From Parvularcula mediterranea (GTDB lineage: Bacteria > Pseudomonadota > Alphaproteobacteria > Caulobacterales > Parvularculaceae), in the NCBI RefSeq assembly GCF_013085255.1, contig NZ_JABFCX010000003.1:62001-126000 (forward strand): 64,000 bases of DNA. Reading direction: 5' to 3'. Below the pieces are notes generated by a model. The model had not been told where the DNA came from, made no database searches, and was given only the letters and a program-made list of their open reading frames with translations. Positions 10,130 to 54,736 of the stretch are shown here, piece after piece (position 1 is the first letter of the stretch; every line of letters begins with the position of its first letter). Position numbers and translations under genes: made by a program.

Positions 10130-10192
10130 GCGAATTTTCTTCTCCAAATCCGCTTGCATCAGCCGATCCCCTGCGCCATACGCAGCCGCTCA

Positions 10193-10269: not shown

Positions 10270-10296
10270 TTTTCTGCTATACAAAAATTAGCCAAG

Positions 10297-10313
10297 CCGT
10301 TGATTTTCAACGG
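10297..10313. repeat. Perfect palindrome after tRNA
   Basis: CCGTTGA-TTT-TCAACGG, a 7-3-7 inverted repeat 28 bp past the tRNA. It could be a weak tRNA terminator or an integrase/excisionase arm site. No T-run follows on the + strand. Confidence 0.4.
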
Positions 10314-10395
10314 AAAATCTCGAGCACAAATGGTTCGATACGCGAATGTAGGCCGATTTGGGCCACATCTGGTGTACGAAGCTGGTCTACATCAC

Positions 10396-10417
10396 TGTGT
10401 CTCAGCGGTGAGACACA
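10396..10417. promoter_or_regulatory. Perfect 9-4-9 inverted repeat upstream of integrase
   Basis: TGTGTCTCA-GCGG-TGAGACACA lies 144 bp before the integrase start codon. Its symmetry suits a dimeric regulator or an att-arm site. No repressor or excisionase gene is recognisable in the island, so the binder is unknown. The rest of 10270-10560 shows no gene. Confidence 0.45.
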
Positions 10418-10560
10418 AACGGGGTCCCAAGCCCCACATCTGACCGGTCGGGCATGCTTCCTCGCGCGGCGTTGTGATCCGCCTCCCACTAAAGTAGCCT
10501 CAAAGCTGGAGCATGCTTTCGGCTCCGCGCTCGGTCTCGCTCTCCGGAAAGGAGAGCGCC

Positions 10561-11985
10561 ATGCCTAAGCCTCCACGCAAGCACGACCACTACCTTCTGA
10601 AACGTAGCGGCCGGTATTATTACTACCGCCGGGTGCCGGAGAAGTACCGCGACCTCGACCCTCGCGGGACGATCAAGACAGCCCTCAAGACAGACAGCCT
10701 GGAGATGGCGAGGATGCGTAGGGATTCCCTCGCGCACTCCGATGAGGAGCTTTGGAAAGCCCTCGAACTCTCCCTAACCGAAGGTGACAAGAGTGGGACC
10801 AGCGTCGCAATCGCCCGGCGTCGGTACAATGCGGCACAGGCAAGAGCGCTCGCTTACGGCTTCACCTATCGCCCGATGGATGAGCTGATCGACGAGGGAA
10901 AGATCGAAGAGATCGTCGCCCGCGTTCTCGCCATCGACAATGATACGAACGGCCCGAAGCGTTCGATCAGGGCGCACCGAGAAACCGCTGAGGCTCTTCT
11001 AGGGGCTGTCCCAGTCCCCGATGTCAGGGTCTCCGATGCATTCAAACTCTACCTCGAAGACATCGCCTTCGACGCCCAATACGGAAAGTCGCCCGCCCAG
11101 AAGGAGGTCTGGCTCAACACTAAGAAGCGATCGATCGGCTACTTCATACAGGTGATCGGCGATATCTCCATGGAAGCCATCACCAGGGAGCACGCCATCG
11201 ACTATAAGAAGTGGTGGGCGGAACGATTGCTTCCCCAAGCCGACGGCTCTCAAAGCCTGAAACCAGCCACCGCGAACCGAGCGATCGGTGACATGCGGAC
11301 GCTCTATCAGTCCTACTTCGAGCATGTCGGTCAGGAACGGACGAACCCCTTCCGCGGGATACGCTTCAAGGCAAAAACGCGCACCGAGGTTCCTGCCTTC
11401 GAGAACGAATGGGTACGAACGAGAATTCTGGAGCCGGGAGCGCTTAGCGGTCTCAACCCGCAGCTCCAGGTGATCGTCTTGATGCTGATCGAAACGGGGT
11501 GCCGTCCGTCGGAGATCATGAATCTCGACCCGGAAGACTTCCATCTGGGCCACGTTGTCCCGCACATCTCGATCCGCGCGAAGGAGGGCCGCGAGATCAA
11601 GACAGAGACCTCGATCAGGGACATTCCGCTGGTGGGGGTCTCGCTCGAAGCCGCGAAGCGGATGCCCGGCGGGTTCCCGCACTATCGGGACAAGAACAAC
11701 CTGTTCTCGGCGTCGGTGGTGAAGGCATTTCGGAACAGAGGTCTCTTCCCGACGCCCAATCACGTCATCTACTCCTTCCGCCACGCCTTCGAAAAGAGGA
11801 TGCAGGAGGCCAACATCGACTTCGGTCTCCGCTGCCTCCTGATGGGGCACAAGACGAGCCGCCCCGCCTATGGAGATGGCGGCTCGCTGGCCTATCGCCG
11901 CGACGAGCTCCTCAAAATAGCTCACCCGTTTTCGGAGAGCCTGTTCTCTGAGATCGACCGCTCAGTTTCGGTCGAAGAGGCGTAG
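10561..11985 (+). CDS. int: Tyrosine recombinase (island integrase)
   Basis: A 474-residue phage-type integrase. The N-terminus 'YLLKRSGRYYYYRRVPEKYR' is the DUF6538-type arm-binding module common in such integrases, followed by a core-binding domain and the catalytic domain with Arg in 'ETGCRPSEIMNL', 'YSFRHAFEKR' (HxxR-box equivalent), 'LMGHK' and the probable nucleophile Tyr in 'RPAYGDG'. ATG at 10561 is chosen for the GGAAAGGAGAG ribosome site before it. It lies directly beside the tRNA-Arg attachment site and is the presumed recombinase for this island. Confidence 0.93.
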   Translation: MPKPPRKHDHYLLKRSGRYYYYRRVPEKYRDLDPRGTIKTALKTDSLEMARMRRDSLAHSDEELWKALELSLTEGDKSGTSVAIARRRYNAAQARALAYGFTYRPMDELIDEGKIEEIVARVLAIDNDTNGPKRSIRAHRETAEALLGAVPVPDVRVSDAFKLYLEDIAFDAQYGKSPAQKEVWLNTKKRSIGYFIQVIGDISMEAITREHAIDYKKWWAERLLPQADGSQSLKPATANRAIGDMRTLYQSYFEHVGQERTNPFRGIRFKAKTRTEVPAFENEWVRTRILEPGALSGLNPQLQVIVLMLIETGCRPSEIMNLDPEDFHLGHVVPHISIRAKEGREIKTETSIRDIPLVGVSLEAAKRMPGGFPHYRDKNNLFSASVVKAFRNRGLFPTPNHVIYSFRHAFEKRMQEANIDFGLRCLLMGHKTSRPAYGDGGSLAYRRDELLKIAHPFSESLFSEIDRSVSVEEA

Positions 11986-41794: not shown

Positions 41795-43747
41795 ATGGCA
41801 CTTCGTATCCGACATTTCCTGGCGGTGGGCGCAGCGCTGATTGCGACCGCTCACGCCGATGACGCGCCGATCTATCCGGCGGAAGCGTTCTTCGAGACGA
41901 CCAGCTACCAGCTCGCGAGGGCTGGCGGCGCCTGGGACCGGCGGGGTGAGAAACTTCTGATCAGCTCGGACGAGACCGGCATCTTCAACGTCTACGCCCT
42001 CGACGCGAAGACTGGCGACCGCGAGGCGCTCACCGAGTCCCGCGACGACGCGATGTTCGCCCTCGGCTGGATGCCTGATGGGGAGAGCTTCCTCTACGCC
42101 GCCGACCAGGGCGGTAACGAGCTGACCCACATCTATCTCAAGATCCCCGGTGAGCGGGCCATCGACCTCACCCCCGGCGACGCGGTCAAGGCGAACTGGC
42201 TCGGCTGGCAGGAAGGCAAGCGCGCCTTCTTCATCTCGACGAACGAACGTGATCCCCAGACCTTCGACGTCTACCGCTACGATGTGCAGAGCCTCGAGCG
42301 CGAGCTGATCTTCGAAAACGAGATGGTGCTCGACAACCTGACCGTGGGCCCGAAGGGCAAGAAGGTTGCCGGTGTCCTCGAGGTTTCGGCTGGCCGCAGC
42401 GAAGTCTACGCTGCTGATCTCCGGAAACGCGGCGGCTTCATCCGCAGACGGAACAGAAGCGGCGCTGACGGCCCGGTCCTCCTGACGCCGGAAGCGGGCG
42501 AGATTTCCCGCAGCATTTACGGCTTCGACCCCACGGGCAACAAGCTGGTCATCGGCTCCAACGTCGATGGCGAGTTCGAGAAGGCCTACGAGGTCCGTCT
42601 CTTTGAAACTGAACGACGTGAGCTGATCGATGGTGGCTGGGATGTTTCCAGCGTCTATTACTCGCCGTCAGGCCGCTTCCGCGTCCACTCGGTGAACGAA
42701 GACGGCCGGACGGTCACGACGATCACCGACCAGCAGCGCAACCGCCCGGTCACGCTCCCTGAGGGGTTGCCCGAAGGCGCGATGACCAATGTCCGCTTCT
42801 CGCCGCGCGAGGACATGATCGCTGCACGGATCTCTTCATCGAAGAGCCCGGCCGACATCTACGTCTTCCCCGTGGGTGACGCAGATGCCGAGCCGCGCCA
42901 GCTGACCACTGCGCTCGATGAACGGATCGAGCCCGAGCACCTCGTTGCGGCGGAAGTGATCCGCTACGAAAGCGCTGACGACCTCGACATCCCGGCGATC
43001 CAGTACCGCCCGAAAGGCGCGGAGAGCTTCGCCAAGGTCCCCGCAGTCGTCTTCGTCCACGGCGGCCCAGGCGGCCAAAGCCGCGCCAGCTATTCCGCCA
43101 TGATCCAGCACATGGTCAACAACGGCTACGGCGTCCTCGCGATCAACAACCGAGGATCGTCAGGGTACGGTAAAAGCTTCTACCACCTCGATGACCGCCG
43201 CCACGGCGAGGCTGACCTCAAAGACGTGGTCGCTGCCCGAACCTATCTTGAAAGCCTCGACTGGGTCGATGGCGACAAGATCGCCGTCATGGGCGGCAGC
43301 TATGGCGGCTTCATGACCATGGCCGCGCTGACCTTCTACCCGGAGGTCTTCGACGCAGGCATCAACATCTTCGGCGTCACCAACTGGGAGCGCACGCTTG
43401 CGTCGATCCCGCCATGGTGGGGCGCGTTCCGTGAGCGGCTCTACTCGGAGATGGGTGATCCGGCTACGGATGGTGCGCGCCACCGCCGTATCTCGCCGCT
43501 CTTCCGCGCGGACAAGGTGACCAAGCCCGTCCTCATCGTGCAGGGCGCCAATGACCCCCGCGTCCTCCAGATCGAGAGCGACGAGATGGTTGCTGAGCTC
43601 CGCAAGAACGGCGTGCCGGTGGAGTATGTTCTGTTCCCGGACGAAGGCCACGGCTTCCGTAAGCGGAAGAACCGGATCGAGGCTTCGGAAGCCTATGTCC
43701 GCTTCCTTGACCAGTATCTCCTCGGAGATGTCGTCCCGGCCAACTAG
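41795..43747 (+). CDS. S9-family prolyl oligopeptidase-like peptidase (periplasmic)
   Basis: A 650-residue protein with signal peptide (1-20, ending 'ATAHADD'). The N-terminal 350 residues form a beta-propeller (TolB/DPPIV-like, 'ALGWMPDGESFLYAADQGG'). The C-terminal alpha/beta hydrolase has 'VFVHGGPGGQSR', the nucleophile Ser502 in GGSYGGF, Asp in 'QGANDPRVL' and His in 'PDEGHGF'. It should cleave oligopeptides in the periplasm. Its stop codon overlaps that of the convergent kinase by 4 bp. Confidence 0.92.
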   Translation: MALRIRHFLAVGAALIATAHADDAPIYPAEAFFETTSYQLARAGGAWDRRGEKLLISSDETGIFNVYALDAKTGDREALTESRDDAMFALGWMPDGESFLYAADQGGNELTHIYLKIPGERAIDLTPGDAVKANWLGWQEGKRAFFISTNERDPQTFDVYRYDVQSLERELIFENEMVLDNLTVGPKGKKVAGVLEVSAGRSEVYAADLRKRGGFIRRRNRSGADGPVLLTPEAGEISRSIYGFDPTGNKLVIGSNVDGEFEKAYEVRLFETERRELIDGGWDVSSVYYSPSGRFRVHSVNEDGRTVTTITDQQRNRPVTLPEGLPEGAMTNVRFSPREDMIAARISSSKSPADIYVFPVGDADAEPRQLTTALDERIEPEHLVAAEVIRYESADDLDIPAIQYRPKGAESFAKVPAVVFVHGGPGGQSRASYSAMIQHMVNNGYGVLAINNRGSSGYGKSFYHLDDRRHGEADLKDVVAARTYLESLDWVDGDKIAVMGGSYGGFMTMAALTFYPEVFDAGINIFGVTNWERTLASIPPWWGAFRERLYSEMGDPATDGARHRRISPLFRADKVTKPVLIVQGANDPRVLQIESDEMVAELRKNGVPVEYVLFPDEGHGFRKRKNRIEASEAYVRFLDQYLLGDVVPAN

Positions 43748-45528
43748 GCTTTGAGCGCTTCCTCGCCTTGAGAGGTCTGGGAGCGCTTCATCACGTGGTC
43801 GATCGTCTCGGCGAGGCGGTCGGCACGCATCGGCTTCGCGATGAAGCCGTCCATCCCGGCATCGAGCAGCGCAGCCTCTTCGCCTTCCATGGCGTCAGCC
43901 GTGGCCGCGATGATCGGAACATCGGCCCAGCGCTCACCGCTCTCGCGAATGGCGCGGGTCGCCTCGATCCCGTCCATGATAGGCATGTGCTTGTCCATCA
44001 GGATCAGGTCGACATCGATCGTCCCCATCAGCTCCAGCACTTCCTGCCCATTCTCGGCAAAGCGCGGCGTCGCGCCCAGAAGCTTGAGGATCTCCTCCGT
44101 CACGAGCTGGTTCACCTGATTGTCCTCAGCGACGAGGATGCTCAGGCCGTCCAGCCGGATCGAGCTATCCGCTTGCTGAACGGTTTTCTCAGGCGCAGGC
44201 GTCTTGGCAACGGGGAGGGGGAGGATCACCACGAAGGTGGTGCCGCCCGGGCCCGTGCGCTTGATCGAGATTTCACCGCCCATCAACTCCGCGAGCTTGC
44301 GGCAGATCGGGAGGCCAAGGCCCGTCCCGTCACGGCGGCGGAGGGTCCCGCTCTCTGCCTGCTCGAAGGGGTCGAACACGGCTTCTGACCGCTCGGCAGG
44401 GATGCCGCAGCCCGTGTCCTGTACCTCGACCCACGCCCAGCCCTTGCGGCCTGGGAGGGCGCCTGCCCGGATGGCGACGCCGCCTTCTTCAGTGAACTTG
44501 AGCGCATTCGAGACAAGGTTCGAGAAGATCTGCCGTATGCGGAGCTCATCACCGAGCACGAGATCCGGCAGCTCCTCCGCGACGTCGAGGGTCAGGGTCA
44601 GCCCGCCCGTTTCCGCGTTGGCGGAGAAGGTTTCCAGCACGGCCTCCAGCAAGGAGCGGAGATCCAGCGGCTCGCTCTCCACCGCCACTTTGTCCGCTTC
44701 GAGCTTGGAGAGGTTCAGAATATCATCGACGATCGACAGGAGATGGCTCCCTGCGTTGTCGATGGTCGTCATGAGCTTCCGCTGGCGGGCACTCAGCGGG
44801 TCGTCATGGGTCTCGAGAAGCACGCCTGTCAGGCCGAGAACAGCATTCATTGGTGTACGAAGCTCATGGCTCATCGAGGCGAGAAACTGCGACTTGGCTC
44901 GCTCCGCATCGAGAGCCCGAGACCGCGCTCCCTCAAGGCTGTTGAGCGCCTCTTCCGCTGCTGCCGAGAGAGCGGTCGCCGCGAACGTGGCAAGGCAAAC
45001 CGCAAACATACCCTGTGTCAGGCGGAGCTCCTGCATCATCGAAAGCCCGGTGAGGAACCCTGCGCTACCCGGCGTCGCATTCTCGGCGAGCAGGACGAGG
45101 ACCACGAGCGCAAAAGGCAGGAAGACGAGACCAACCCGCCAGCCGCCGACGAACGTCAGGACCAACGGACTGATCGCAAGGTAAGGAAGGAGTGACGTGT
45201 CGATTCCGGTATTGTCCAGTGACGCCGGCACAACGATGCCCGCAATCATCGCCGCGCCAAGGATCGACGCATAGAACAGAGATGCCTTGAACCAGCGAAG
45301 AACAACGACAGCGCCGAGGCAGAAAATAGAAAAAGCAACACTCGGCCAGTGGTAAACGGACCATCCACCGAACGTGTACAAACTGATGAAGATATTGCTC
45401 GTCTGTACCAGAACGAAACAGAGCAAAATGCTGTAGGTCGCACGGGTCCTCAGGATCGCCCATCCGCTGTCGAGGCGTTCCATAAGGAGAAAGCGCTCAA
45501 GAGCGCGCCACGGGACCTTCCAATGCAT
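43744..45528 (-). CDS. Membrane-bound hybrid sensor histidine kinase
   Basis: A 594-residue kinase. The N-terminal 190 residues contain about six hydrophobic segments without a large periplasmic domain. They are followed by HisKA with 'FLASMSHELRTPMNAVLG', HATPase_c ('NLVSNALKFTEEGG', 'DTGCGIPAERSEAVFDPF', 'GTGLGLPICRKL') and a C-terminal REC with 'VDLILMDKHMPIMDG' and 'FIAKPMRADRL'. There is no HPt or cognate response regulator next to it, so its output partner is elsewhere. Confidence 0.92.
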   Translation of the reverse strand: MHWKVPWRALERFLLMERLDSGWAILRTRATYSILLCFVLVQTSNIFISLYTFGGWSVYHWPSVAFSIFCLGAVVVLRWFKASLFYASILGAAMIAGIVVPASLDNTGIDTSLLPYLAISPLVLTFVGGWRVGLVFLPFALVVLVLLAENATPGSAGFLTGLSMMQELRLTQGMFAVCLATFAATALSAAAEEALNSLEGARSRALDAERAKSQFLASMSHELRTPMNAVLGLTGVLLETHDDPLSARQRKLMTTIDNAGSHLLSIVDDILNLSKLEADKVAVESEPLDLRSLLEAVLETFSANAETGGLTLTLDVAEELPDLVLGDELRIRQIFSNLVSNALKFTEEGGVAIRAGALPGRKGWAWVEVQDTGCGIPAERSEAVFDPFEQAESGTLRRRDGTGLGLPICRKLAELMGGEISIKRTGPGGTTFVVILPLPVAKTPAPEKTVQQADSSIRLDGLSILVAEDNQVNQLVTEEILKLLGATPRFAENGQEVLELMGTIDVDLILMDKHMPIMDGIEATRAIRESGERWADVPIIAATADAMEGEEAALLDAGMDGFIAKPMRADRLAETIDHVMKRSQTSQGEEALKA

Positions 45529-45625
45529 GCAAATGATTCCCCCTGCGCGCTGTTCTAGGGAGAAATACTCAAAAAAGTGCTAGTGGTTCCATGGGCTTGA
45601 TTGTTACCGATCCCACGCTCCGCGA

Positions 45626-46396
45626 TCACCCATCTGCTCCAGCATGCTCGCCAGGCTCGACCCCAAGGGCGGCATCAAGCGCCTCGTGCACACCATCGAT
45701 GCTCCGCGAGTAAGGCTGCACGACATCGCGCATGAAGCTGTCATAAAGATCGATGTTCCAGGCGAGATCATTCCGAAAAGCGGGCGACGCCTGCATGGCT
45801 GCGACATCGCACTGAAAACGAAGCCTCAGTTCTGTTCCGTCCACCTGTGCCGGAGCATCCTCAACGTAAGGCGTCGTCGTGATGGCTTCAGGGTACTTAG
45901 AGGATAAATTGACAGCAGACTGACGAGTGAAATTCCGATCGTCCGCTGTCACAAGGCTCTGCTGTAGGGTGGCAATCCTTGTGGCAAGCAGATCGTCGGA
46001 AATGATCGAAAGCCGATTGTTCGCCTGCAGACGATCAATACTGGGCAATGAGCTCTCGCCGAGGACGAGAATGCTTGTCCCCGCGATGGCGAGGCACTCC
46101 TGGTCCGTCAGCTCCCGTCCATCCCCTTCGCTGTAGATAGCATCGATCGCAATCTGCATCGCTTCGTGAGAGGCCGTGCGCGCCGCAAGCTTCTCCTCAT
46201 AGACGTCCCGGCCGGCCAATATCTCCCGGTGAAGGGCAATCAGGAACTCCTGCTCCTCATCCCGGTCCCGGCGTTCGTCATTCCAGTTACCAAGCTGGAG
46301 ACCCATGAACACACCGACGACGACGATGAAGAAGTCAATGCCCACGGCGACCCAGTTCTGGGTACGGACATGTTCCATGACACGGCGCAGGATCAT
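45626..46396 (-). CDS. Array paralogue 1 (last in operon): single-pass membrane protein
   Basis: 256 residues. Constant head 'MILRRVMEHVRTQNWVAVGI' continues into one membrane helix 'DFFIVVVGVFMGLQLGNWNDE' (about 20-40), then a mostly helical ectodomain. The family core motif is weakest here: 'LQANNRLSIISDDLL', with NN in place of SG. Two cysteines (CLAIAG and 'FQCDVAAM'). The N-terminus resembles DUF6090-type proteins; function unknown. It overlaps paralogue 2 by 4 bp and is the 3'-most gene of the nine. Confidence 0.85.
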   Translation of the reverse strand: MILRRVMEHVRTQNWVAVGIDFFIVVVGVFMGLQLGNWNDERRDRDEEQEFLIALHREILAGRDVYEEKLAARTASHEAMQIAIDAIYSEGDGRELTDQECLAIAGTSILVLGESSLPSIDRLQANNRLSIISDDLLATRIATLQQSLVTADDRNFTRQSAVNLSSKYPEAITTTPYVEDAPAQVDGTELRLRFQCDVAAMQASPAFRNDLAWNIDLYDSFMRDVVQPYSRSIDGVHEALDAALGVEPGEHAGADG

Positions 46397-47160
46397 CGTG
46401 AGCGCCCTCCATCAAGTTGCGCATCCACAGCGACGCGTAGGGCTTCGAGTGCAGCGTCGACACGCTGGTTGTCGCCGCGGTGAAAGGCGCGATTGTTGAC
46501 CATCTTGAAGAGAACGTTCTTATACTGATTATTATCCCGCATGCCTTCGAGGTCGCAGGAGACGAAGGATCGCAAGACTTCTTCCGACTGGACGGACTCG
46601 GTAATCCCGCCTCTTTCAATGATCGGGACGATGCTGCCTTGGAACTGGATGAGATCAGGAAAGATCGTGGCCGGGTCGACCTTTTCAGAGGCGATCGCGC
46701 TTTGCGAGTCCCGAGCGCGTGCCGAGACAAGGAGATAGCTCTCGATGGCGCGCGCCACCTCGACATCGGTGATGAGGGTAAGCCTCCCCGATGTCATCAG
46801 CTCACTGATCGCCCCGACTTGATCTGTGGGGTTGGAAACAGGCGCTCCGGTCAGGGCAAAACACTCAATCGCCGTCAGCTCCGCCGGGTCGCCTGAGTAA
46901 ACCTTCTCTGCTGCCTCCGCCATCACACTGGTGAGGAAATGCCGGCCTGTCAGAACTGTTGCGCGCGTTCTCTGGAGGTCAGCGATCTCCACGCGCAGGC
47001 GCTCATAGTACTCGTTCTCAAGAGCCCGGTCGGCGCGATAGTTCGACCATTCCTGAACCTGCAGACCGATGAAGACACCCAGCACGACGATCAGGAAATC
47101 AATCCCGACCGCCAGCCAGTTCTGTGTACGGACATGTTCAATGATACGGCGAAGGATCAC
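46393..47160 (-). CDS. Array paralogue 2: single-pass membrane protein
   Basis: 255 residues. Head 'MILRRIIEHVRTQNWLAVGI', helix 'DFLIVVLGVFIGLQVQEWSN': the usual GNWNE after the helix is replaced by QEWSN, the most divergent junction of the array. The ectodomain has the core motif 'SELMTSGRLTLITDVEV' and cysteines in 'ECFALTG' and 'FVSCDLEG', placed like those of paralogue 1. Its helix-coding DNA is nearly identical to that of paralogue 3. The GTG start gives a 4-bp overlap. Confidence 0.85.
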   Translation of the reverse strand: MILRRIIEHVRTQNWLAVGIDFLIVVLGVFIGLQVQEWSNYRADRALENEYYERLRVEIADLQRTRATVLTGRHFLTSVMAEAAEKVYSGDPAELTAIECFALTGAPVSNPTDQVGAISELMTSGRLTLITDVEVARAIESYLLVSARARDSQSAIASEKVDPATIFPDLIQFQGSIVPIIERGGITESVQSEEVLRSFVSCDLEGMRDNNQYKNVLFKMVNNRAFHRGDNQRVDAALEALRVAVDAQLDGGRSR

Positions 47161-47870
47161 CGTTCGCCTCCCTTCAGTTCATTGAGTGCCGCTCCTGCAT
47201 AATCGCTCTGAAGCCTCGCAGCTCGGAGGAGGTTCAGTTGCAGAACGTAGAGGCCTTCCAAATGCCCCTCCGCTTCCCTCAGTGCATCGAGATCATAGCG
47301 AATTCGACTGAGAGACTCTGTGCCCTGTAGGAATTCCAGTCGTTCCTCCGCGGAGCGCACAGGCACATCGCGAAAGTCGGGTACCCTGATCAATTGATCG
47401 ATAGTCTTCGGATAAAGGAAGTTCTGCTGATCGACGGACTGATGGTAGCGGGTCAGCGCGCTACGCGTCTCGTCATCCCGCAGAAGCTTGAGGTCACCTG
47501 ACGCAACGAGTTGCTGATACGTGGCAGAGCGAAGGGGAGGGCGACCAAGATTGAAGCTCAGATAGACCGCTTCCTTCATCCGCTCCTCGGCAAACTCAGA
47601 GTCGCCGCGAGCGACTTCGATCAGGACTCCTGTGGCGTCGAGATATCGGGGCACAGCTTCAAGGGTCCCATCGAGCGCTGCGGCGATCTCTTCAAACTCG
47701 ATTGTCAGCCGACCGATGAGCTCAAGCTCGGTTTTCCGGGCCTCCCTCGCTTCATTCAGGTTGCCCAGCTGGATACCAATGAACACACCCACGACAACGA
47801 TCAGGAAATCAATCCCGACCGCCAGCCAGTTCTGTGTACGGACATGTTCGATGACGCGGCGCAGGATCAT
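47157..47870 (-). CDS. Array paralogue 3: single-pass membrane protein
   Basis: 237 residues, the shortest copy. Head 'MILRRVIEHVRTQNWLAVGI', helix followed by GNLNE instead of GNWNE. Cysteine-free ectodomain with core motif 'QQLVASGDLKLLRDDET' and a helical C-terminus. Overlaps both neighbours by 4 bp. No recognisable enzymatic motif. Confidence 0.85.
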   Translation of the reverse strand: MILRRVIEHVRTQNWLAVGIDFLIVVVGVFIGIQLGNLNEAREARKTELELIGRLTIEFEEIAAALDGTLEAVPRYLDATGVLIEVARGDSEFAEERMKEAVYLSFNLGRPPLRSATYQQLVASGDLKLLRDDETRSALTRYHQSVDQQNFLYPKTIDQLIRVPDFRDVPVRSAEERLEFLQGTESLSRIRYDLDALREAEGHLEGLYVLQLNLLRAARLQSDYAGAALNELKGGER

Positions 47871-48634
47871 CGGCTGGCCTCCACGGATGCTCTTACCCGG
47901 TCAGTCAGCGCCTGTGACCGCGCGGCTTCCCGGTACAGGATGCCCACAACGATATCGCCGGTGGCCACCCAATAGCGGAGCTCATTGCGAAGCTCTTCGT
48001 TCGAGAGAAGGCTGGCCACCACCGGGCCGGTTTCTATGCCAAGCCCGGTTGGCGCAGGGCATTCCTTGAAAAGCTGCGCCTGGCGGACGCTGGTCTCATA
48101 GCAATGCTCCGTATGGTAACGTTGCAGCGCTACGGGGATGATGCCCCTGACGGTCCTGCGGTAAGCGGGAAACTCACTGATGAGATCGTTGATCTTGATC
48201 TCGCCATAGTAGACCCCCAGTTCTCGCATGAGTTCGGAGTCCTCGAGCAAGGCCACATCGCCGGTGCTCGTTAGCTCCTCATAGGTCGCCCTGACGCTCC
48301 TTACACCGATGGAATGGCTCGCTTCCATGAAGGCCGAGATGACCTGCCAGTCCGACGCGCTGCCCCGGTCTTCGTAGAAGCTGAGCGCTCTTTCCCCTTG
48401 GTCCCGAACCTGCTCACGGAAGATGCGGTTGTTCTCGAAGCTCTCAGTGGTCAGGTCGAGGTCTGCTGCGAGGCGTTCCAAATAGCCGACCGCCCGGGTC
48501 TGGCCAGCGCGCTCCTCGTTCCAGTTCCCAAGCTGGATACCGATGAAAACACCGACGACGACGATCACGAAGTCGATCCCGACCGCGATCCAGTTCTGCG
48601 TACGGACATGTTCCAGAATGCGGCGGAAGATCAT
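47867..48634 (-). CDS. Array paralogue 4: single-pass membrane protein (Cys subtype)
   Basis: 255 residues. Head 'MIFRRILEHVRTQNWIAVGI'. Ectodomain with 'ATYEELTSTGDVALLEDSEL', the clearest copy of the family core motif, and 'GIIPVALQRYHTEHCYET...FKECPAP', a segment shared with paralogues 6 and 8. The downstream gene (paralogue 3) overlaps it by 4 bp; its ATG overlaps the TAA of paralogue 5 by a single base (TAATG). Confidence 0.85.
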   Translation of the reverse strand: MIFRRILEHVRTQNWIAVGIDFVIVVVGVFIGIQLGNWNEERAGQTRAVGYLERLAADLDLTTESFENNRIFREQVRDQGERALSFYEDRGSASDWQVISAFMEASHSIGVRSVRATYEELTSTGDVALLEDSELMRELGVYYGEIKINDLISEFPAYRRTVRGIIPVALQRYHTEHCYETSVRQAQLFKECPAPTGLGIETGPVVASLLSNEELRNELRYWVATGDIVVGILYREAARSQALTDRVRASVEASR

Positions 48635-49374
48635 TAGCGGCTCCCCTCCTGCGGGAGGAGGTCGATCAGGTCCTCCGTCTGCTGCATAAGGCGTTCAGCA
48701 ACGACGACACTCAGCGCGATCGTCCCGAAACGGATGGCCAGAACGCCGTCAAGCGTGCGCAAATCCTCTGGCGCGACCCGGTCGTTCTTGAAGGACGAGG
48801 GGGTAAACCCTGCTGCCTGGGCGACCTGGCCTCGCGCGAGAACGGCGGCGAAGGAGAGGTGCTCCGTGATGAAGGGCAGGGCGATATGGTCCCTATGCTC
48901 CAGCGCATCCCGGTCCAGCCGCTGCAGGTACACGACATCGGCTTCCCACTTCGAAATCTCCTCCCGCAGAGGGGTCCCGGCCAAGGTGCTGAACGCGTCC
49001 GAAGCGGCGAGGTCGTCGAAAGCGACGGTCTCAGGCCGGTAATTCGTCACCGCGGTCACTGCGAAGAGTCCCGCATTCAGCGTATCTTCTTCGACGTCCC
49101 CGTCGGCCTCCGCGAGCGCAGCGCGGACCTCATTGATCGCGTCGAGCCTTGCCTGCTTCGCATCACGATAGCTGCTGAGTTCATCGAGGTTGCGCTCAAG
49201 CTCATCAGCGAAGGCGATAAGCTGGCGATCAAGCTGCCGCCTCTCCGCAGCGCTCTCGTTCCAGTTCCCAAGCTGGATACCGATGAAAACACCCACCACG
49301 ACAATGACGAAGTCGATGCCAACGGCCAGCCAGTTCTGCGTACGAACATGCTCCATGACGCGGCGGAGGATCAT
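48634..49374 (-). CDS. Array paralogue 5: single-pass membrane protein
   Basis: 246 residues from ATG 49374; the frame is open 34 codons further but that part overlaps paralogue 6 and lacks the conserved head. Head 'MILRRVMEHVRTQNWLAVGI', GNWNE junction, then a coiled-coil-like 'RRQLDRQLIAFADELERNL'. Core motif degenerate ('DDLAASDAFSTLAGTPL'). No cysteines. Function unknown. Confidence 0.85.
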   Translation of the reverse strand: MILRRVMEHVRTQNWLAVGIDFVIVVVGVFIGIQLGNWNESAAERRQLDRQLIAFADELERNLDELSSYRDAKQARLDAINEVRAALAEADGDVEEDTLNAGLFAVTAVTNYRPETVAFDDLAASDAFSTLAGTPLREEISKWEADVVYLQRLDRDALEHRDHIALPFITEHLSFAAVLARGQVAQAAGFTPSSFKNDRVAPEDLRTLDGVLAIRFGTIALSVVVAERLMQQTEDLIDLLPQEGSR

Positions 49375-50135
49375 TTTAGGCGCTCCAGCTCTCGGTCGAC
49401 CTCGGCGATCGCTTCCTCTGCCATCGTGATTTCCTGCTGGAGGTCGCTCGGGAAGGAGACGATGAAGCCGATCCACTCGGTCAGCGTCAGGGCAATATCA
49501 GGCTCCGCACGGATGGCTTCGACGGCCAAGCGAGAGACTTCGGGCGCCACGGGCTCGGGACAGTCCTGGACATAGAGCTCCCAGCCCTCCTGAATGAAGT
49601 AGCACGCGTTCCAATAATGCTCCTGCATTTCGACCGGAATTCGTTGACGGACGAGTGTTCGGTACTCCGGGATGATGCTGCCGGTGGTGATCAGGATGTC
49701 GTTCCTGAAGTGATAGGCCGACACCGCAGCCACAACATCGCGGGACGTCGGCAGTCCTTCCCGGCGCATCTCCTCAAAAATCGTCCGAGGTACAGCCGTC
49801 GTCTGCCACTGGGACGCATGGAACATGTCCAACAGCACAGCCCAGCAGTCGCTCCCGCAATCCTCGTCACTTGAAAGAAAGGCGAGGGACCGCTCTCCTG
49901 CCTCCGCGACCTGCTCAAACGAATTGATCCGTCCACGTGTCCGCTGAACCGAGATCGCCAGTTCCTGCCTCAGCTCGGAAAGCATCATCCGCTCGCGCTC
50001 GGCCGCACCGCGCTCCTCGTTCCAGTTCCCAAGCTGGATACCGATGAAAACACCGACCACGACGATGACGAAGTCGATCGCTACCGCTAGCCAGTTCTGT
50101 GTACGGACATGCTCCATGACGCGTCGGAGGATCAT
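49371..50135 (-). CDS. Array paralogue 6: single-pass membrane protein (Cys subtype)
   Basis: 254 residues. Standard head and helix. The ectodomain has 'SSDEDCGSDCWAVLLDMFHA' and 'RIPVEMQEHYWNACY...QDCPEP', closely matching paralogue 8 and partly paralogue 4, so four cysteines could form two disulfides in the periplasm. Core motif region 'EEMRREGLPTSRDVV'. Overlaps both neighbours by 4 bp. Confidence 0.85.
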   Translation of the reverse strand: MILRRVMEHVRTQNWLAVAIDFVIVVVGVFIGIQLGNWNEERGAAERERMMLSELRQELAISVQRTRGRINSFEQVAEAGERSLAFLSSDEDCGSDCWAVLLDMFHASQWQTTAVPRTIFEEMRREGLPTSRDVVAAVSAYHFRNDILITTGSIIPEYRTLVRQRIPVEMQEHYWNACYFIQEGWELYVQDCPEPVAPEVSRLAVEAIRAEPDIALTLTEWIGFIVSFPSDLQQEITMAEEAIAEVDRELERLK

Positions 50136-50872
50136 CGTTGAGCCTCCTCCAGCCGTTCGAGGATGGCATCGACGCGAGCGTCAATCCGCAGTCTCCACAT
50201 GGTGAAGTAGTTGTGGATGCGGTAGTATTCCTCCGCCGCGTTCTCGAATGCAGGATCGTCCGTCATCCCTTGAAAATCGATCGCCCCGATACCCGTTCCG
50301 ACTTCGGTCGGATCCGCGTAGGCCTCGGTGAGTGCCCAACTCATATCGAGGGAGAAGTGGCGCGAGAAACTGACCTGGATGACCTCGCTCCTGCCAATGA
50401 AGAAGTCGCGCGCCACAGCAAAGCGTTCCAGAAAGTCCTGGTACTCGACGAGAAGGTCGAGGAGCTGCTTGTCCTGCAACAGGTTGGCACGGCCTGAGGA
50501 CAACAGCTCCGTAAACGTACCTGAGTGGTCAGCACTGGTTTGAAAGGCATCGCCAAACGCCAGCGCGCGCTCGATCGCGGGGAGGTCCTCTTCGGAAAAC
50601 GAACCCTCCCGAACGGCTTCGATCAGTGTCCTGAAATCAGAGACCATCGATTCATGAAAAGCGCGGCTTCGCTCGCCATCGTCACCGATGCGCCTGAAGT
50701 CGACGCGCAGCCGCTCAATCAACGCAGCCTCTTCGACCCGTTGTTGCCGCACTTCGTTCCAGTTCGACACCTGGATACCGATGAACACACCAACCACGAC
50801 GATGACGAAATCAATCCCAACCGCCAGCCAGTTCTGGGCTCGCACATGCTCTGTCAGTCGACGGAGGATCAT
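50132..50872 (-). CDS. Array paralogue 7: single-pass membrane protein
   Basis: 246 residues. Head 'MILRRLTEHVRAQNWLAVGI' with SNWNE after the helix, as in paralogue 9. Core motif 'TELLSSGRANLLQDKQL'. Cysteine-free. The C-terminal part is amphipathic helix ('WRLRIDARVDAILERLEE'). Overlaps both neighbours by 4 bp. Confidence 0.85.
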   Translation of the reverse strand: MILRRLTEHVRAQNWLAVGIDFVIVVVGVFIGIQVSNWNEVRQQRVEEAALIERLRVDFRRIGDDGERSRAFHESMVSDFRTLIEAVREGSFSEEDLPAIERALAFGDAFQTSADHSGTFTELLSSGRANLLQDKQLLDLLVEYQDFLERFAVARDFFIGRSEVIQVSFSRHFSLDMSWALTEAYADPTEVGTGIGAIDFQGMTDDPAFENAAEEYYRIHNYFTMWRLRIDARVDAILERLEEAQR

Positions 50873-51636
50873 TCGCCGCGCTCCAGATGCTGGTTGATCG
50901 CGTCAACGCTCGCTTCGGCGCGTTCGATGAGCTCCGGATAGTTCAGCCGCGCATACTCGTTCTGACCGACCCAATACCGCAGGGAATGCTCCAGCTCCCG
51001 GTCGGCCTGCATCGCGCTGAGGGCCGATGAGAGGTCAATCTCCGACAAGGCGTCCTCACACCCGTAGGTCAGAACCTCGTTCGCCATGTCCAAGACTTCG
51101 TAGCAGTCCTGCCAAAGCAGCGTCATGGCATCGACGGGAATGTATCCGCGCACCTGTTCGCGGTAGGGCGGGGGCGTCGCGTTCACCGTGTCCCACCCCA
51201 CGATGTAGGAATAGACGCTCTGAACGTTCAGGCGCAGCGGTTCATGGCTCGGGATGCCTCGCCTGTTGGTCTCCTGGTACTTCTCGCGGAAGAACCCGGT
51301 GCCCCAAACTTGCGAGGCGTGGAAAAGATCAATGACCAGCCGTTCGCAATCCGACGTACACGGCTCATCGCTCTCGAGAAACTGAAGGCCGCTTCGCCCG
51401 CCCTCAACGACACGATCCACGAACTGCGCCTGAATGCGCGCCATGTGCGCGTTCGAGGCGATCTCGTCCCGCAGCTGCTCAAGATACTCAGCCTCCTGAA
51501 CATGAGATACCCGCGCCTCGTTCCAGTTACCGATCTGGATGCCCAAGAACACACCGACCACGACGATGACGAAGTCGATCCCAACAGCGAACCAGTTCTG
51601 CGTGCGGACATGTTCCATCACGCGGCGCAAGATCAT
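50869..51636 (-). CDS. Array paralogue 8: single-pass membrane protein (Cys subtype)
   Basis: 255 residues. Head 'MILRRVMEHVRTQNWFAVGI', IGNWNE junction. The ectodomain shares 'ESDEPCTSDCERLVIDLFHA' and 'GYIPVDAMTLLWQDCYEV...YGCEDA' with paralogue 6, the closest pair in the array although not adjacent. Core region 'YQETNRRGIPSHEPL'. Overlaps both neighbours by 4 bp. Confidence 0.85.
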   Translation of the reverse strand: MILRRVMEHVRTQNWFAVGIDFVIVVVGVFLGIQIGNWNEARVSHVQEAEYLEQLRDEIASNAHMARIQAQFVDRVVEGGRSGLQFLESDEPCTSDCERLVIDLFHASQVWGTGFFREKYQETNRRGIPSHEPLRLNVQSVYSYIVGWDTVNATPPPYREQVRGYIPVDAMTLLWQDCYEVLDMANEVLTYGCEDALSEIDLSSALSAMQADRELEHSLRYWVGQNEYARLNYPELIERAEASVDAINQHLERGE

Positions 51637-52442
51637 TGGTCAGCACCCCCGAGATAGGCTTCGATCCTGCTCTCCAGCTCAACCGTCTCTGAACGCAGCC
51701 TGTTGGCAATCGCTTCATTCGCCGCGGCGACGCCGCTTCGCTTCCCAACCCGGGATTTCACGTCGCTCCAGACGTCCGCGCTGGCAGGGAGCATGAGAAC
51801 GCTTCCGCCGGTTGCCATGAGGCTGGGGTCAATGCGTTCACGCCGGGTCTGGTTGATCGTGTCGAACACCGCGGGCGCAGCCATGCCCATGATTTCGGTG
51901 TCCCATACCCATGAGCCAACGGAGATATCATCAGTAAACCGATTGAAACCATCGTCGATGAAGGTCGCGTTGTTCTTATCGATCACGGCCTCCAGCCGTT
52001 TGATCCCGAAAAAGTACGAAACGATGGCCCGACGCAGGTCGGGATTGGATATCAGGCCAAGCCGCCCGGAGCTTTGAAGGTCAAGAAAGGTCGGGCTTTC
52101 AATAATCAGTGTCCGTCGCGCGCCAAGCTGATCCAGCGTCATCCCGATTTTCCGACGCCGCAGTTCTGAGGGCTGCCCATCGATCAGCGGCAGGACGCCG
52201 TTTCCGATCTCCACCATGAACTGCTCGAACTCGATCTGGCTCTCCACCTCGACAATGGATGCCCGAAGGTCCTGCTGCAGAAGCTCGAGATAGGCGGCCT
52301 CAGCGTCCCGATTAACCCGCGCTTCGTTCCAGTTCGAAACCTGAATACCAATAAACACACCGACCACGACGATGACGAAGTCGATGCCCACCGCCAGCCA
52401 GTTCTGGCTGCGGACATGGTCCAGCACTCTACGAAACAGCAC
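51633..52442 (-). CDS. Array paralogue 9 (first in operon): single-pass membrane protein
   Basis: 269 residues, the longest and probably first-transcribed copy. Head 'MLFRRVLDHVRSQNWLAVGI', SNWNE junction, core motif 'LDLQSSGRLGLISNPDLRR', then an extended C-terminal helix region. The start is GTG at 52442 with GGGAGG upstream. Only 49 bp separate it from the MerT-like gene, so the array may be read through from the metal operon; a weak hairpin GTGCT-AGCGTG-AGCAC is all that intervenes. Confidence 0.85.
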   Translation of the reverse strand: MLFRRVLDHVRSQNWLAVGIDFVIVVVGVFIGIQVSNWNEARVNRDAEAAYLELLQQDLRASIVEVESQIEFEQFMVEIGNGVLPLIDGQPSELRRRKIGMTLDQLGARRTLIIESPTFLDLQSSGRLGLISNPDLRRAIVSYFFGIKRLEAVIDKNNATFIDDGFNRFTDDISVGSWVWDTEIMGMAAPAVFDTINQTRRERIDPSLMATGGSVLMLPASADVWSDVKSRVGKRSGVAAANEAIANRLRSETVELESRIEAYLGGADQ

Positions 52443-52491
52443 GCCCCGAATCCTCCCTAAGTGCTCACGCTAGCACAAAGGTGGCGAGGAC

Positions 52492-52872
52492 CTAGAGAAG
52501 GAGATCAGCAGCAAAGAAGGCGAAGAATCCGCCAACAAGATAGGCGCCAACTGCAATCCACAGAATGACGCCTCCGATTTTTCTCATGCGTGTGCACGCG
52601 CGAGCCTGCGCCGGATCAATGGGGCAGGGCGCATTTCTTGAGCGCCAGCGCATGTATCCTGCCAGCACCAGAAGTGCTCCCGAAACAAGGAACAGTGCGG
52701 TCTTGCGCTCTGTCAGCCAGATCAGGCCCGGGACATTGGCGGTCAGCCCCGCCATCACCGCCCCAGCTCCAAAGGCAATCAAAAGCGCCGGGAGGGCACA
52801 GCAAAGAAGGGTGGAGGTGCTGGCGAACAGTGCGACTGTCGGAGCCAGCCCCTCACGGGCGAAGAGCCTCAT
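52492..52872 (-). CDS. MerT-like metal transport membrane protein
   Basis: 126 residues with three membrane segments. The first holds the vicinal cysteine pair 'STLLCCALPALLIAFGAGA', and the cytoplasmic loop has 'NAPCPIDPAQARACTRMRK' (two more cysteines), the arrangement of MerT-type mercuric transporters. With a CsoR-type regulator upstream, the metal may be Cu(I) or another soft metal rather than mercury; no merA or merR is nearby. It overlaps the HMA-protein gene by 4 bp. Confidence 0.72.
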   Translation of the reverse strand: MRLFAREGLAPTVALFASTSTLLCCALPALLIAFGAGAVMAGLTANVPGLIWLTERKTALFLVSGALLVLAGYMRWRSRNAPCPIDPAQARACTRMRKIGGVILWIAVGAYLVGGFFAFFAADLLL

Positions 52873-53324
52873 GCACCGGAGCCCTGAAGCGCTTCCTCTC
52901 CGCGACGGATGGAAGCGATCCGGTAGCCAGCTTTCTTGACCAGCTTTTCGATCTCAGGGTCGGACAGCTTGGACTCCGGCTTGAGAACGAGGTTGAGTGT
53001 CTTCGTGTCGAGATCGACATAGACGGCCGAGACGTCATCGCGGCGGCCGAACGTCTTGTTCATGGCCTTGGCGCAGAAGTCACAGACAACGCCGAGGACG
53101 TCTGCCACCACGGGCTTGCCGCCTGCTTTCAGCGCTTTTTCGATCGCCTCCGTCTTTGCGATGGGGGGATGTTTCTTTGTTTTTTCTCCATGTCCGTCGT
53201 GATGGCCAGCATGTTCGCTGCCATGATCGTGAGACTGTCCGTGGTCATGGCCTTCATGGTCATGATCTTGGGCCGGTACACTCACCGTGGTGAGTGCAAG
53301 GGTAAGCGCGAGTGTCGTCAGCAT
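52869..53324 (-). CDS. Periplasmic His-rich HMA-domain metal-binding protein
   Basis: 151 residues. Signal peptide 1-18, then a histidine-rich stretch (about 20-50, 'HDHEGHDHGQSHDHG'), then a heavy-metal-associated fold with 'GVVCDFCAKAMNKTF' (CxxC) and 'GYRIASIRRG'. It would bind metal in the periplasm and pass it to the MerT-like transporter, as MerP does. It follows the barrel gene by 11 bp. Confidence 0.85.
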   Translation of the reverse strand: MLTTLALTLALTTVSVPAQDHDHEGHDHGQSHDHGSEHAGHHDGHGEKTKKHPPIAKTEAIEKALKAGGKPVVADVLGVVCDFCAKAMNKTFGRRDDVSAVYVDLDTKTLNLVLKPESKLSDPEIEKLVKKAGYRIASIRRGEEALQGSGA

Positions 53325-53335
53325 ACGGTTCCTCC

Positions 53336-53974
53336 CTAGAACCTGTAGGTGAAGTTGATGAGCGGCTGGTCATCGGTGATGCTCCAGCCAGCTTCGAAGA
53401 GGGCAGCGCCCTTGAAGAAACGAACGAGGGGCGTGATCCCCACCGGCTCGTCATTCTGAGGTCGATGGTCGACCTCAATCATCAGCCACGTGTGAAGATC
53501 GCCGGTATCGCCTTCGTAGGGCGCCCAGCCGACGCGGGCAGCCTGCATGAATTGGTCACCAAGCTCTCCAGCATCGAGCACGCGGTTCCGATAGGATACG
53601 AAAAGACGCCTTGTCTCCCAGTCTGCGAGGACGCCAGCGAACCCGGCGAGCCCGGAGAGGCCCTCTCGGTCGTCTATTCCCTCGGCATGGCCGAGTCCCA
53701 GCACGGGATAGATGTTGGCTTGGTAATTCTCGCCGAACCATCGTTTCCCAAGGAAGGTCGCCTGACCACCGGCGAATACGAAGTCCATCTGCCGGTCCCA
53801 TTCGATCCGTAAACCAAGCGAAAGGGCCGGATCGACGGTGTAGTGGGTCCAAAGGGACGTTGATTGGCGATCGGTCTCTTCAATCAGGGTCCAGCCACCC
53901 TGGTAGGAGACCGGGCGGGCATTCGCTGCCGTGGCGGCAAGGCTGAGAAGAATGGAGGCGACGATGACCCTCAT
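53336..53974 (-). CDS. Outer-membrane beta-barrel-like protein of the metal operon
   Basis: 212 residues with signal peptide (1-19). The mature protein alternates aromatic/polar beta-strand patterns ('LGLRIEWDRQMDFVFAGGQA', 'RLFVSYRNRVLDAGE', 'PLINFTYRF') and ends in phenylalanine, the outer-membrane barrel signature. No known family identified. It overlaps the CsoR gene by 4 bp and is co-transcribed with the metal-binding genes. Confidence 0.65.
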   Translation of the reverse strand: MRVIVASILLSLAATAANARPVSYQGGWTLIEETDRQSTSLWTHYTVDPALSLGLRIEWDRQMDFVFAGGQATFLGKRWFGENYQANIYPVLGLGHAEGIDDREGLSGLAGFAGVLADWETRRLFVSYRNRVLDAGELGDQFMQAARVGWAPYEGDTGDLHTWLMIEVDHRPQNDEPVGITPLVRFFKGAALFEAGWSITDDQPLINFTYRF

Positions 53975-54246
53975 CGCTTACGCCCGCTCAGTACATCCGC
54001 CAGCTCACGGACTTTCTCGCGACGATCATCGAGGTTCCCGCTGGTCAGAGCGTGATCGACGCACGTCTCGACATGGTCATCGACCACAAGGCGCTCGATC
54101 GATACCAACGCGCCGCGGACGGCCTGCATCTGGCGCAGGACATCGACGCAGTAGCGGTCGCTCTCGACCATTTTCAGCACGCCCTGCAGCTGGCCCTCGG
54201 CTTTCTTCAGCCGCTTGAGAACGTCCGGTTTCGTTTCGTCTTTCAT
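53971..54246 (-). CDS. csoR: CsoR/RcnR-family metal-sensing repressor
   Basis: A 91-residue four-helix repressor: 'KRLKKAEGQLQGVLKMVESDRYCVDVLRQMQAVRGAL' with the first metal ligand Cys, then 'VVDDHVETCVDHA', giving His and Cys four residues apart. This C-H-C set is the Cu(I) pattern of CsoR rather than the Ni/Co pattern of RcnR. Start at ATG 54246. It probably represses the operon of barrel, HMA protein and MerT-like transporter and is released by metal. Confidence 0.85.
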   Translation of the reverse strand: MKDETKPDVLKRLKKAEGQLQGVLKMVESDRYCVDVLRQMQAVRGALVSIERLVVDDHVETCVDHALTSGNLDDRREKVRELADVLSGRKR

Positions 54247-54267
54247 ACCCCTACCCTGCAGGGGGAT
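54245..54267 (-). promoter_or_regulatory. Candidate CsoR operator
   Basis: ATACCCCTACCCTGCAGGGG (54245-54264, followed by GAT) contains the palindrome CCCTGCAGGG inside G/C tracts flanked by AT, like CsoR-family sites. It overlaps the csoR ribosome-binding region and start codon. Confidence 0.6.
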
Positions 54268-54412
54268 CATGGTTTAAGCAAGTTGCTCTGCAAAAGCCTT
54301 TCAAACGCTCAGAGCCGCCGCGACGAATGGCGGAAATGTCACGGGTTGCGCCGCAGCGCGAAAAGCCCAGATACTATCCTTCTAGGACATCTGAGACACC
54401 ATCACGCCACCT

Positions 54413-54736
54413 ATGAGCGAAGAACGCGACGACGACCGCGGCGTCGGCACCGGTACGATTACCAAGGCCGAGCCAAAAACGAAAAAGCCGAACCTCTACA
54501 AGGTTTTGCTGCTTAACGACGACTACACCCCGCAGGAATTCGTGGTGTGGCTGCTGGAGGCGGTCTTCAACAAGGACCGCGAGGCAGCGACCCGCATCAT
54601 GCTGCATGTCCACCAGACCGGGGTCGGGATCTGCGGCATCTACACCTTCGAGGTTGCCGAAACGAAAGTCGCGCAGGTGCTTGAACTGGCCCGTCGCAAT
54701 GAGCACCCTCTTCAGTGCACGATGGAAAAGGAATAA
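54413..54736 (+). CDS. clpS: ClpS adaptor of ClpAP
   Basis: 107 residues. The conserved core '[24 protein letters not shown]' and '[26 protein letters not shown]' builds the N-degron pocket (the Asn-Asp-Asp and His of 'MLHVH'). ClpS delivers substrates with destabilising N-terminal residues to ClpA, encoded next. The N-terminal 25 residues are a flexible tail. Confidence 0.95.

Follow-up and report, generated by a model that had tools for sequence, protein, structure and literature searches.

Nine tandem one-helix protein genes of Parvularcula mediterranea resemble a cassette array with shared heads as probable recombination substrates

The window analysed here, a 64,000-nucleotide stretch from Parvularcula mediterranea, carries nine consecutive genes that probably form a cassette-like array, in which constant heads act as recombination substrates and variable bodies may make up a changing periplasmic repertoire for recognition or protection. 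We put the probability of this reading, which is built on sequence comparison, at roughly 0.6. Comparison with relatives shows that head DNA has been homogenised within genomes, that the head class attached to a body varies from one genome to another, with some genes being clear head/body mosaics, and that array order and number are unstable. Head/body recombination is absent from the sequence-only reading, which saw a diversifying or heteromeric set of paralogues.

The array occupies 45626-52442 on the minus strand, where the one-strand series of nine described in that reading is confirmed as nine consecutive ORFs of 237-269 aa, g1 to g9, each a single open frame. It begins with g1 (51633..52442, 269 aa, GTG start), followed by g2 (50869..51636, 255 aa, cysteines 93/97/178/193), g3 (50132..50872, 246 aa), g4 (49371..50135, 254 aa, cysteines 93/97/178/192), g5 (48634..49374, 246 aa), g6 (47867..48634, 255 aa, cysteines 178/192), g7 (47157..47870, 237 aa) and g8 (46393..47160, 255 aa, cysteines 100/202), which also has a GTG start, and ends with g9 (45626..46396, 256 aa, cysteines 101/196). 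Seven of the eight junctions are 4-bp overlaps and g5/g6 joins as TAATG with a 1-bp overlap, much as first described, except that one of the seven (g7/g8) is GTGA and six are ATGA. In all, 163/199 neighbouring pairs overlap by 4 bp (121) or 1 bp (42). The overlaps make a single transcript for g1-g9 plausible. A scan for sigma-70-like promoters gives zero sites in 43600-54500 (shuffles 2.7), a result that is uninformative for this bacterial group.

All nine genes open with a matching head of 120 nt, which in g1 is the homogenised segment 52323..52442 on the minus strand. Heads share about 80% DNA identity, whereas bodies share 16-30% pairwise protein identity, in keeping with the near-identical heads and divergent remainders noted from the sequence alone. 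In 15-nt steps, mean pairwise DNA identity is 0.70-0.88 across nt 1-120, drops to 0.44 at nt 121-135 and lies at 0.30-0.34 from nt 181; in the 60 nt upstream of the starts it is 0.26-0.41. The longest exact shared runs in heads measure 53 nt (g7/g8) and 49 nt (g4/g6), and those outside heads at most 12 nt. The first 34 residues hold 22 invariant columns in the alignment of the nine. Where head residues are identical between copies, they use the same codon at a frequency of 0.54-0.79 against 0.40-0.56 expected from codon usage, an excess seen in 14 of the 14 largest genome or locus groups. The core motif of which the sequence-only reading saw a trace in all nine ectodomains, SG-R/D-x-x-L-I/L-x-D/N, is found in strict form by pattern search in only five (g1, g3, g6, g7 and g8). 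By eye in the alignment it is degenerate in g9 (NNRLSIISD) and absent from g2, g4 and g5.

The products belong to a DUF6090-like one-helix family without a name. PF19578 (DUF6090; cut-off 23.5 bits) is passed by g5 (26.8 bits) and g1 (25.2); g2, g3, g4 and g6 match below the cut-off at E<=0.015, and g7, g8 and g9 show no match to this profile. The matches lie at the helix and body start and, except for that of g5, end within the first 40-50 positions of the profile. In group A3, to which g1 belongs, 34/47 members match at E<=0.01. The single membrane helix claimed earlier is borne out across relatives: 19-residue hydropathy reaches 1.6 in the head of 286/287 members, and in the body of five. 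The N side of the helix is more positive in 253/287. Cysteines after residue 40 occur in 187 members, in even number in 175 of these, and 100 have none. From these features the proteins of the array and its relatives are probably exported, and those of the array are predicted to be anchored in the inner membrane and to face the periplasm. None of the nine proteins has a convincing match in NCBIfam, and the best match of group A2 (that of g4) to solved structures has an E of 0.13.

The bodies are related to one another. HMM-HMM comparison of bodies only gives at least 80% probability in 28/36 window pairs and in 0/36 reversed controls, in alignments some of which have sequences in common (chiefly those of g2, g4 and g6), with g7 as a single sequence; the possibility that the ectodomains are unrelated, raised as a refutation of the sequence-only reading, therefore falls away. 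Related bodies also occur across genera and classes: g1 has body orthologues at five other loci (56-39% identity), those of g3 come from alpha- and gammaproteobacterial records, and Paraglaciecola arctica (L118) has one of g4 (45%). Gene-wide body dN/dS is 0-0.39 in 31/31 orthologous pairs. Since bodies are homologous and under gene-wide purifying selection, their variety points to cassette turnover, and it is in this sense only that the array can be called diversifying.

The family is patchily distributed. It is present in 46/62 Parvularculaceae genomes at 0 to 37 copies per genome; the host genome has 17 members, and 5/10 genomes of its genus have none. Arrays reach at least 15 genes, and relatives also hold broken heads and remnants of family genes. 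The window's site is bordered on the left by an S9 (prolyl oligopeptidase) peptidase gene (41795..43747, plus strand) and on the right by clpS (54413..54736, plus strand) and then clpA. Between these borders, a hybrid sensor histidine kinase gene (43744..45528, minus strand) adjoins the array, and four further minus-strand genes (52492..54270) lie between the array and clpS, encoding proteins of 126 and 212 aa without a Pfam match, an HMA-domain protein and a metal-sensitive repressor. The same site in relatives holds 0, 1 or 9 members. Within the genus, L158 has a lone g9 orthologue there (52% over 253 aa), and L157 has the histidine kinase orthologue (60%) without the array and without the four genes before clpS. 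Among the 28 arrays listed, no two have the same body-group series, and adjacency is kept in 10/46 chances.

A patchy distribution with unstable order, and the occurrence of broken heads and remnants, would also be expected of a largely neutral accordion, in which heads recombine as repeats, copy number drifts and variety has no adaptive role. Bodies are under purifying selection, cysteine numbers are even in most members that have any, and overlapping in-frame junctions prevail, which suggests instead that the products are used, and we consider a neutral accordion unlikely.

Evidence that heads and bodies are inherited apart comes from 287 relatives. Head class, defined by our own rule on residues around the first Trp, differs in 169/502 body-orthologue pairs (random pairing 0.265), among them 3/18 at >=80% identity. 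Two genes, L051:3064 and L053:11108, share 63% nt identity in codons 1-10, 47% in codons 11-20 and then 87-100%; both genomes are MAGs, as are many of the relatives, so mis-binning or chimeras are possible. In a second mosaic, L061 and L064, the synonymous difference is 0.38 in the head and 0.02 in the body (Fisher 1.4e-7): the heads differ almost only by silent changes and the bodies are nearly identical. Head and body synonymous rates differ (p<0.01) in 6/31 pairs with body identity >=70%, the head rate being higher in four and lower in two, and show no difference at that threshold in the other 25.

Genes 2 and 4 of a four-gene array in the same genus (L160) share 77-90% nt identity over 120 nt and 17-47% thereafter, and genes 1 and 3 match at 90-100%. 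The head of the g9 orthologue (nt 1-60) scores 0.67 to g9 and 0.65-0.70 to g1-g8, whereas that of g9 scores 0.72-0.87 to its array mates. Within-genome paralogues are 0.74 identical over residues 1-20 and 0.69 over residues 21-40; in 41 orthologue pairs at 60-75% the order is the opposite (0.68 and 0.82). Adjacent heads within 22 arrays average 0.771, a weak neighbour effect (permutation p 0.005), although neighbours in several arrays have less similar heads. Kept adjacencies in this comparison number five, too small a sample for relating broken order to foreign heads.

Heads might instead be alike from protein-level selection alone, through helix packing or a shared partner, with lineage-specific co-adaptation and no recombination. 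Invariant or nearly invariant positions fall mostly in the head, which makes a degree of functional constraint likely. In favour of recombination, nt identity tracks the body poorly in codons 1-20 and 21-40 (rank correlations 0.17 and 0.29) and more closely in codons 42-61 (0.62; 506 pairs), although protein constraint on heads narrows the range and lowers such correlations. At third codon positions the head correlation over all 506 pairs (0.27-0.36) is not below that of the body (0.30-0.37); in the 147 pairs at >=50% it is mostly lower (0.16-0.48 against 0.45-0.65). Protein selection without recombination is nonetheless very improbable, given synonymous codons common beyond codon usage, synonymous rates that disagree in both directions, the silent differences between L061 and L064, and head classes that switch on similar bodies.

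Strong divergence within one array could also stem from positive selection on point mutations, as in diversification of an antigenic type; this reading is about as improbable, since gene-wide body dN/dS is low in all 31 pairs and related bodies span genera and classes. A fixed nine-subunit hetero-oligomeric envelope complex, with which co-expression suggested by overlapping genes and a possible packing of heads would agree, is very improbable, and the word heteromeric in the sequence-only reading is disfavoured because neither order nor copy number is conserved.

In the cassette reading, each unit would comprise a 120-nt head, encoding a basic tail and one helix, and a divergent but homologous body. 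The mosaics, together with the finding of 0, 1 or 9 genes at one site in relatives, make the head DNA most likely a handle for ordinary homologous recombination of the RecA type, with crossing-over and gene conversion between heads. As genes share a common start position and ATGA or TAATG overlaps, head-to-head exchange would leave an intact, in-frame and probably translationally coupled operon. The result would be an integrase-free cassette array, in which purifying selection maintains each body for as long as it is of use and bodies come and go as cassettes.

Integron cassette arrays likewise consist of single-gene units that are reordered and exchanged between distant bacteria. Integrons have attC sites between genes, for which the window's overlapping junctions (8/8) leave no room, and the exchanged joint of the window array lies inside coding sequence; the array does not look like an integron. 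A 972-bp block common to L061 and L064 has sharp ends with end palindromes, for which an integron-like reading is kept as a lead; no attC-like ends were recognised in it by eye.

The tandem lipoproteins lpl/csa1 of S. aureus were reportedly studied by Tsuru and Kobayashi in 2008, and we know of no description of start-stop coupling there. Like the window family as proposed here, these "gene accordions" are exported tandem paralogues with recombination-driven changes in copy number (PMC7360770). The crossover site in lpl, about 130 nt of conserved sequence (PMC9484751), is central rather than in a 5' head, and the lpl/csa1 work considered here lies within one species. The T7SS immunity arrays esaG (S. 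aureus) and tipC (streptococci) are strings of non-identical paralogues whose copy number shifts by homologous recombination at short conserved intragenic blocks, of about 55-100 nt in esaG (PMC9484751), and the window family shares this organisation. A further likeness is the probable lipoprotein signal peptide of TipC (PMC9484751). They differ in having two (tipC) or three (esaG) blocks (PMC9484751) against one anchor-coding 5' block here, intergenic regions in esaG against overlapping genes, and known toxins, against none recognised by eye near the window family. Related bodies across genera and classes further set the window family apart. The S. aureus tsaI array has one 5' homology block, covering the first membrane helices, and a variable remainder, as here, but TsaI is polytopic rather than one-helix and that account gives little recombination evidence, against clear mosaics in the window family (PMC9484751). 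The staphylococcal and streptococcal lpl, esaG and tipC arrays are the closest precedents (PMC9484751).

The proteins may form an immunity- or decoy-like periplasmic repertoire, a weaker proposal. Inspection by eye of the 22 neighbour clusters that recur most often within 2.5 kb, a few representatives of which were scanned with Pfam, turned up no toxin-like gene, so the functional part is purely an analogy. PADLOC models gave no convincing match for any of the nine proteins (best E 0.011), and the array was not assigned to an anti-phage defence system. Nor does it register as phage or plasmid cargo: neither the 72,556 plasmid records nor the 50,697 phage records matched g5, searched alone, at E<=0.001, and of 13 pattern matches of the nine-protein alignment to viral contigs none could be confirmed. 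PHROGs returned two weak matches for g5 and none for three others tried. The literature searched holds no mention of DUF6090/PF19578, although a description under another name is possible, and the papers listed by looser searches lack the names DUF6090 and PF19578 or Parvularcula and Parvularculaceae.

The array points to a simple way of reshuffling tandem paralogues while the operon stays intact. Its homology block coincides with the 5' end that encodes the anchor and includes start, stop overlap and frame, so that recombination within it would still yield a functional gene. The locus also lends itself to a clear test of the role of heads, as mere anchors or as genuine sites of exchange. A family found in most Parvularculaceae genomes can now be read as a repertoire comparable to immunity-gene arrays. 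More speculatively, and on balance doubtfully, the 120-nt head may have evolved as a protein-coding recombination site that forms, with the ATGA/TAATG joints, an integrase-free platform on which alpha- and gammaproteobacteria trade single-gene periplasmic recognition proteins. If so, bacteria of these two classes, often marine as the host probably is, would build their arrays into heritable repertoires against competitors or phages.

The array is a gapless run of nine minus-strand genes spanning 45626-52442, from g1 (51633-52442), the first, to g9 (45626-46396), the last. Neighbouring genes overlap by 4 bp at seven of the eight junctions and meet in TAATG at the remaining one (g5/g6), bearing out the sequence-only reading of nine consecutive, overlapping genes on one strand. 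Its description of conserved heads (the first 120 nt, encoding a basic tail and a membrane helix) and strongly diverged remainders also holds: mean pairwise DNA identity among the nine is 0.70-0.88 over nt 1-120, drops to 0.44 at nt 121-135 and is 0.30-0.34 from nt 181 on, and the bodies (residue 46 on) are 16-30% identical. The 60 nt upstream of the nine starts are dissimilar (identity 0.26-0.41). A core motif proposed for all nine proteins is strict in five and, by eye, degenerate in g9 and absent from g2, g4 and g5.

DUF6090 is the sole Pfam family found in the nine proteins beyond stray matches, scoring above the cut-off in two, below it in four and not at all in three; the profile also hits 34 of the 47 relatives in an alignment (E<=0.01). 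No mention of DUF6090 (PF19578) was found in the literature searched. Unrelated ectodomains behind a shared anchor are not seen: the nine bodies look like one superfamily, because HHalign on bodies alone gives at least 80% probability in 28 of 36 window pairs and in 0 of 36 reversed controls. Family-wide counts cover 287 full-length members at 86 loci. A strong hydrophobic stretch occurs in the head of 286 members and in the body of five. The more positive flank of a membrane helix is cytoplasmic under the positive-inside rule, and since 253 of 287 members carry more positive charge on the N side, the predicted orientation is N-in with the body outside. Past residue 40, 100 members have no cysteine and 175 of the other 187 have an even number, as disulfide-bearing exported proteins would show. 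Among 199 same-strand neighbouring family pairs, 121 overlap by 4 bp and 42 by 1 bp, 29 are separated by more than 60 nt, and seven lie close with neither overlap.

Across the family, judged from sequence comparison, heads and bodies evidently travel separately. The bodies have relatives in other genera and classes (g1 56% in L066, g3 48% in L072, g4 45% in L118, all loci of relatives). Reciprocal-best pairs having three or more mates on each side number 283, and in 220 of them the head is nearer its own-genome mates than its orthologue's head by mean nucleotide identity. A rule on residues round the first tryptophan assigns 280 of 287 members to head classes (I 238, III 28, II 14). The class differs in 92/287 body-orthologue pairs at 35-45% body identity, 54/122 at 45-55%, 13/46 at 55-65%, 7/29 at 65-80% and 3/18 at 80% or more; random pairing gives a mismatch of 0.265. 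Over 506 pairs, codons 1-20 show a rank correlation of 0.17 with the body (from codon 46) and codons 21-40 one of 0.29, but codons 42-61 reach 0.62 with the body after codon 100; when each genome pair contributes a single pair (n=355), the values are 0.16 at codons 1-20 and 0.60 at codons 51-70. Within-genome paralogues are more alike at residues 1-20 (0.74) than at 21-40 (0.69), and the order is reversed (0.68 and 0.82) in orthologue pairs at 60-75% body identity (n=41). As counter-evidence, at third codon positions only the difference is gone over all pairs (head 0.27-0.36 versus body 0.30-0.37); it returns in part in the 147 pairs at 50% or more (0.16-0.48 versus 0.45-0.65).

Individual genes are mosaic. 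Between the genes at L051:3064 and L053:11108, identity is 63 and 47% over the first two ten-codon windows and 87-100% from there to the end. Two records share a 972-bp block (9909-10880 in both L061 and L064) that holds one family gene, is 97.7% identical and has dissimilar flanks; 12 of the 14 differences in the gene fall within nt 34-138, just one alters a residue, and synonymous difference is 0.38 in the head and 0.02 in the body. The block looks like a mobile single-gene unit. Its ends are sharp, with short palindromes, and an IS110-type transposase lies upstream in L061, none being recognised in the listed part of L064. Among 31 pairs at 70% or more, head and body rates differ at p<0.01 in six (head more diverged in four, less in two) and show no difference in 25. 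The L160 array, from the same genus, reads A-B-A'-C, with A and A' 90-100% alike and B and C alike in the first 120 nt only. Of the 24 closest pairs, 17 share a block roughly one gene long, four a block of two genes and three a longer one, and several blocks start only within the head; extension into the next head is weak evidence because all heads are alike.

Copy number varies across genomes. The own genome has 17 members (E<=1e-6): besides those of this array, it carries a run of four (L012 7413-10451) and four that stand singly. A lone distant member there, L013 5758-6504, has a differing head (RRDWLMLFFELILLVLGVYAGIALGNWNE). Members occur in 5 of 10 genomes of the genus (0 to 17 matches per genome), 46 of 62 of the taxonomic family (0 to 37) and 3 of 200 in a phylum sample (E<=1e-12), own genome included each time, and, among the best 80 matches, in gammaproteobacterial records that include Wenzhouxiangella, Aliiglaciecola and Paraglaciecola. 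A search of 72,556 plasmid and 50,697 phage records found no g5 relative; no match was confirmed in viral contigs searched with the nine-protein alignment.

The array's site (41795-54736), bordered by an S9 peptidase gene on one side and clpS-clpA on the other, varies within the genus and here also carries a metal-repressor gene cluster. Besides the nine members it holds four more genes, of which Pfam marks two as metal-related. Of two congeneric loci, L157 has the sensor histidine kinase gene that adjoins the array in the window but no array, and L158 lacks that kinase and has a single member, an orthologue of g9 (52% over 253 aa). Because that orthologue's head (nt 1-60) is no nearer g9 (0.67) than g1-g8 (0.65-0.70), and the g9 head is 0.72-0.87 to its array mates, either the g9 head would have adopted the array dialect or the orthologue would have lost it.

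Gene order is unstable, with adjacency retained in 10 of 46 chances. Other one-helix families, TPR proteins and SnoaL-like proteins recur within or beside arrays, several with a 4-bp overlap. One one-helix family (VGLIILIVEVRQN; L160 3351-3932, L050 8302-9225, L016 2984-3526 and an open frame at L045 12986-14053) lies inside or ahead of arrays in eight genome groups, where 4-bp overlaps are frequent; the one member tried has no Pfam match. A related-looking family (IQVRQ) takes the same positions in seven groups. TPR proteins whose membrane heads share a conserved FFSELKRRNV (L075 2153-4012 and relatives) lie near arrays in 13 and are perhaps another constant-head, variable-body family. At L066 3196-3270 a broken head, a 24-codon remnant, precedes a foreign gene of these recurring kinds; its stop overlaps that gene's start, and it could be a translational-coupling leader. 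At L046 7314-8180 a family head is fused to a protein from outside the family, whose SprT-like match is weak and below the cut-off.

Arrays of this kind are known. The esaG and tipC arrays recombine at conserved blocks, tsaI has one 5' block and little recombination, lpl is recounted as having a central conserved block (all PMC9484751), and RecA-mediated accordion behaviour is supported for csa1 (PMC7360770). The window array is of this kind, but it has a single anchor-coding 5' block, stops that overlap the next start, and bodies whose relatives span genera and classes.

The comparisons show DNA-level homogenisation, head switching, mosaics, and unstable number and order. RecA-type recombination between heads would be the likely route; a head-to-head crossover would leave a working coupled operon, because the joint falls at a fixed in-frame place and the previous stop overlaps the start. 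Body dN/dS is 0 to 0.39 in 31 pairs, and on this gene-wide measure the bodies are under purifying selection, so the array probably changes by cassette turnover rather than point diversification. The proposal of a diversifying array holds only in the former sense. Because no toxin was recognised among recurrent array neighbours and PADLOC gave no convincing match for the array proteins, function is a guess held at well below even odds: if immunity arrays are a guide, the bodies may form a repertoire of proteins that act in the periplasm as protectors or decoys.
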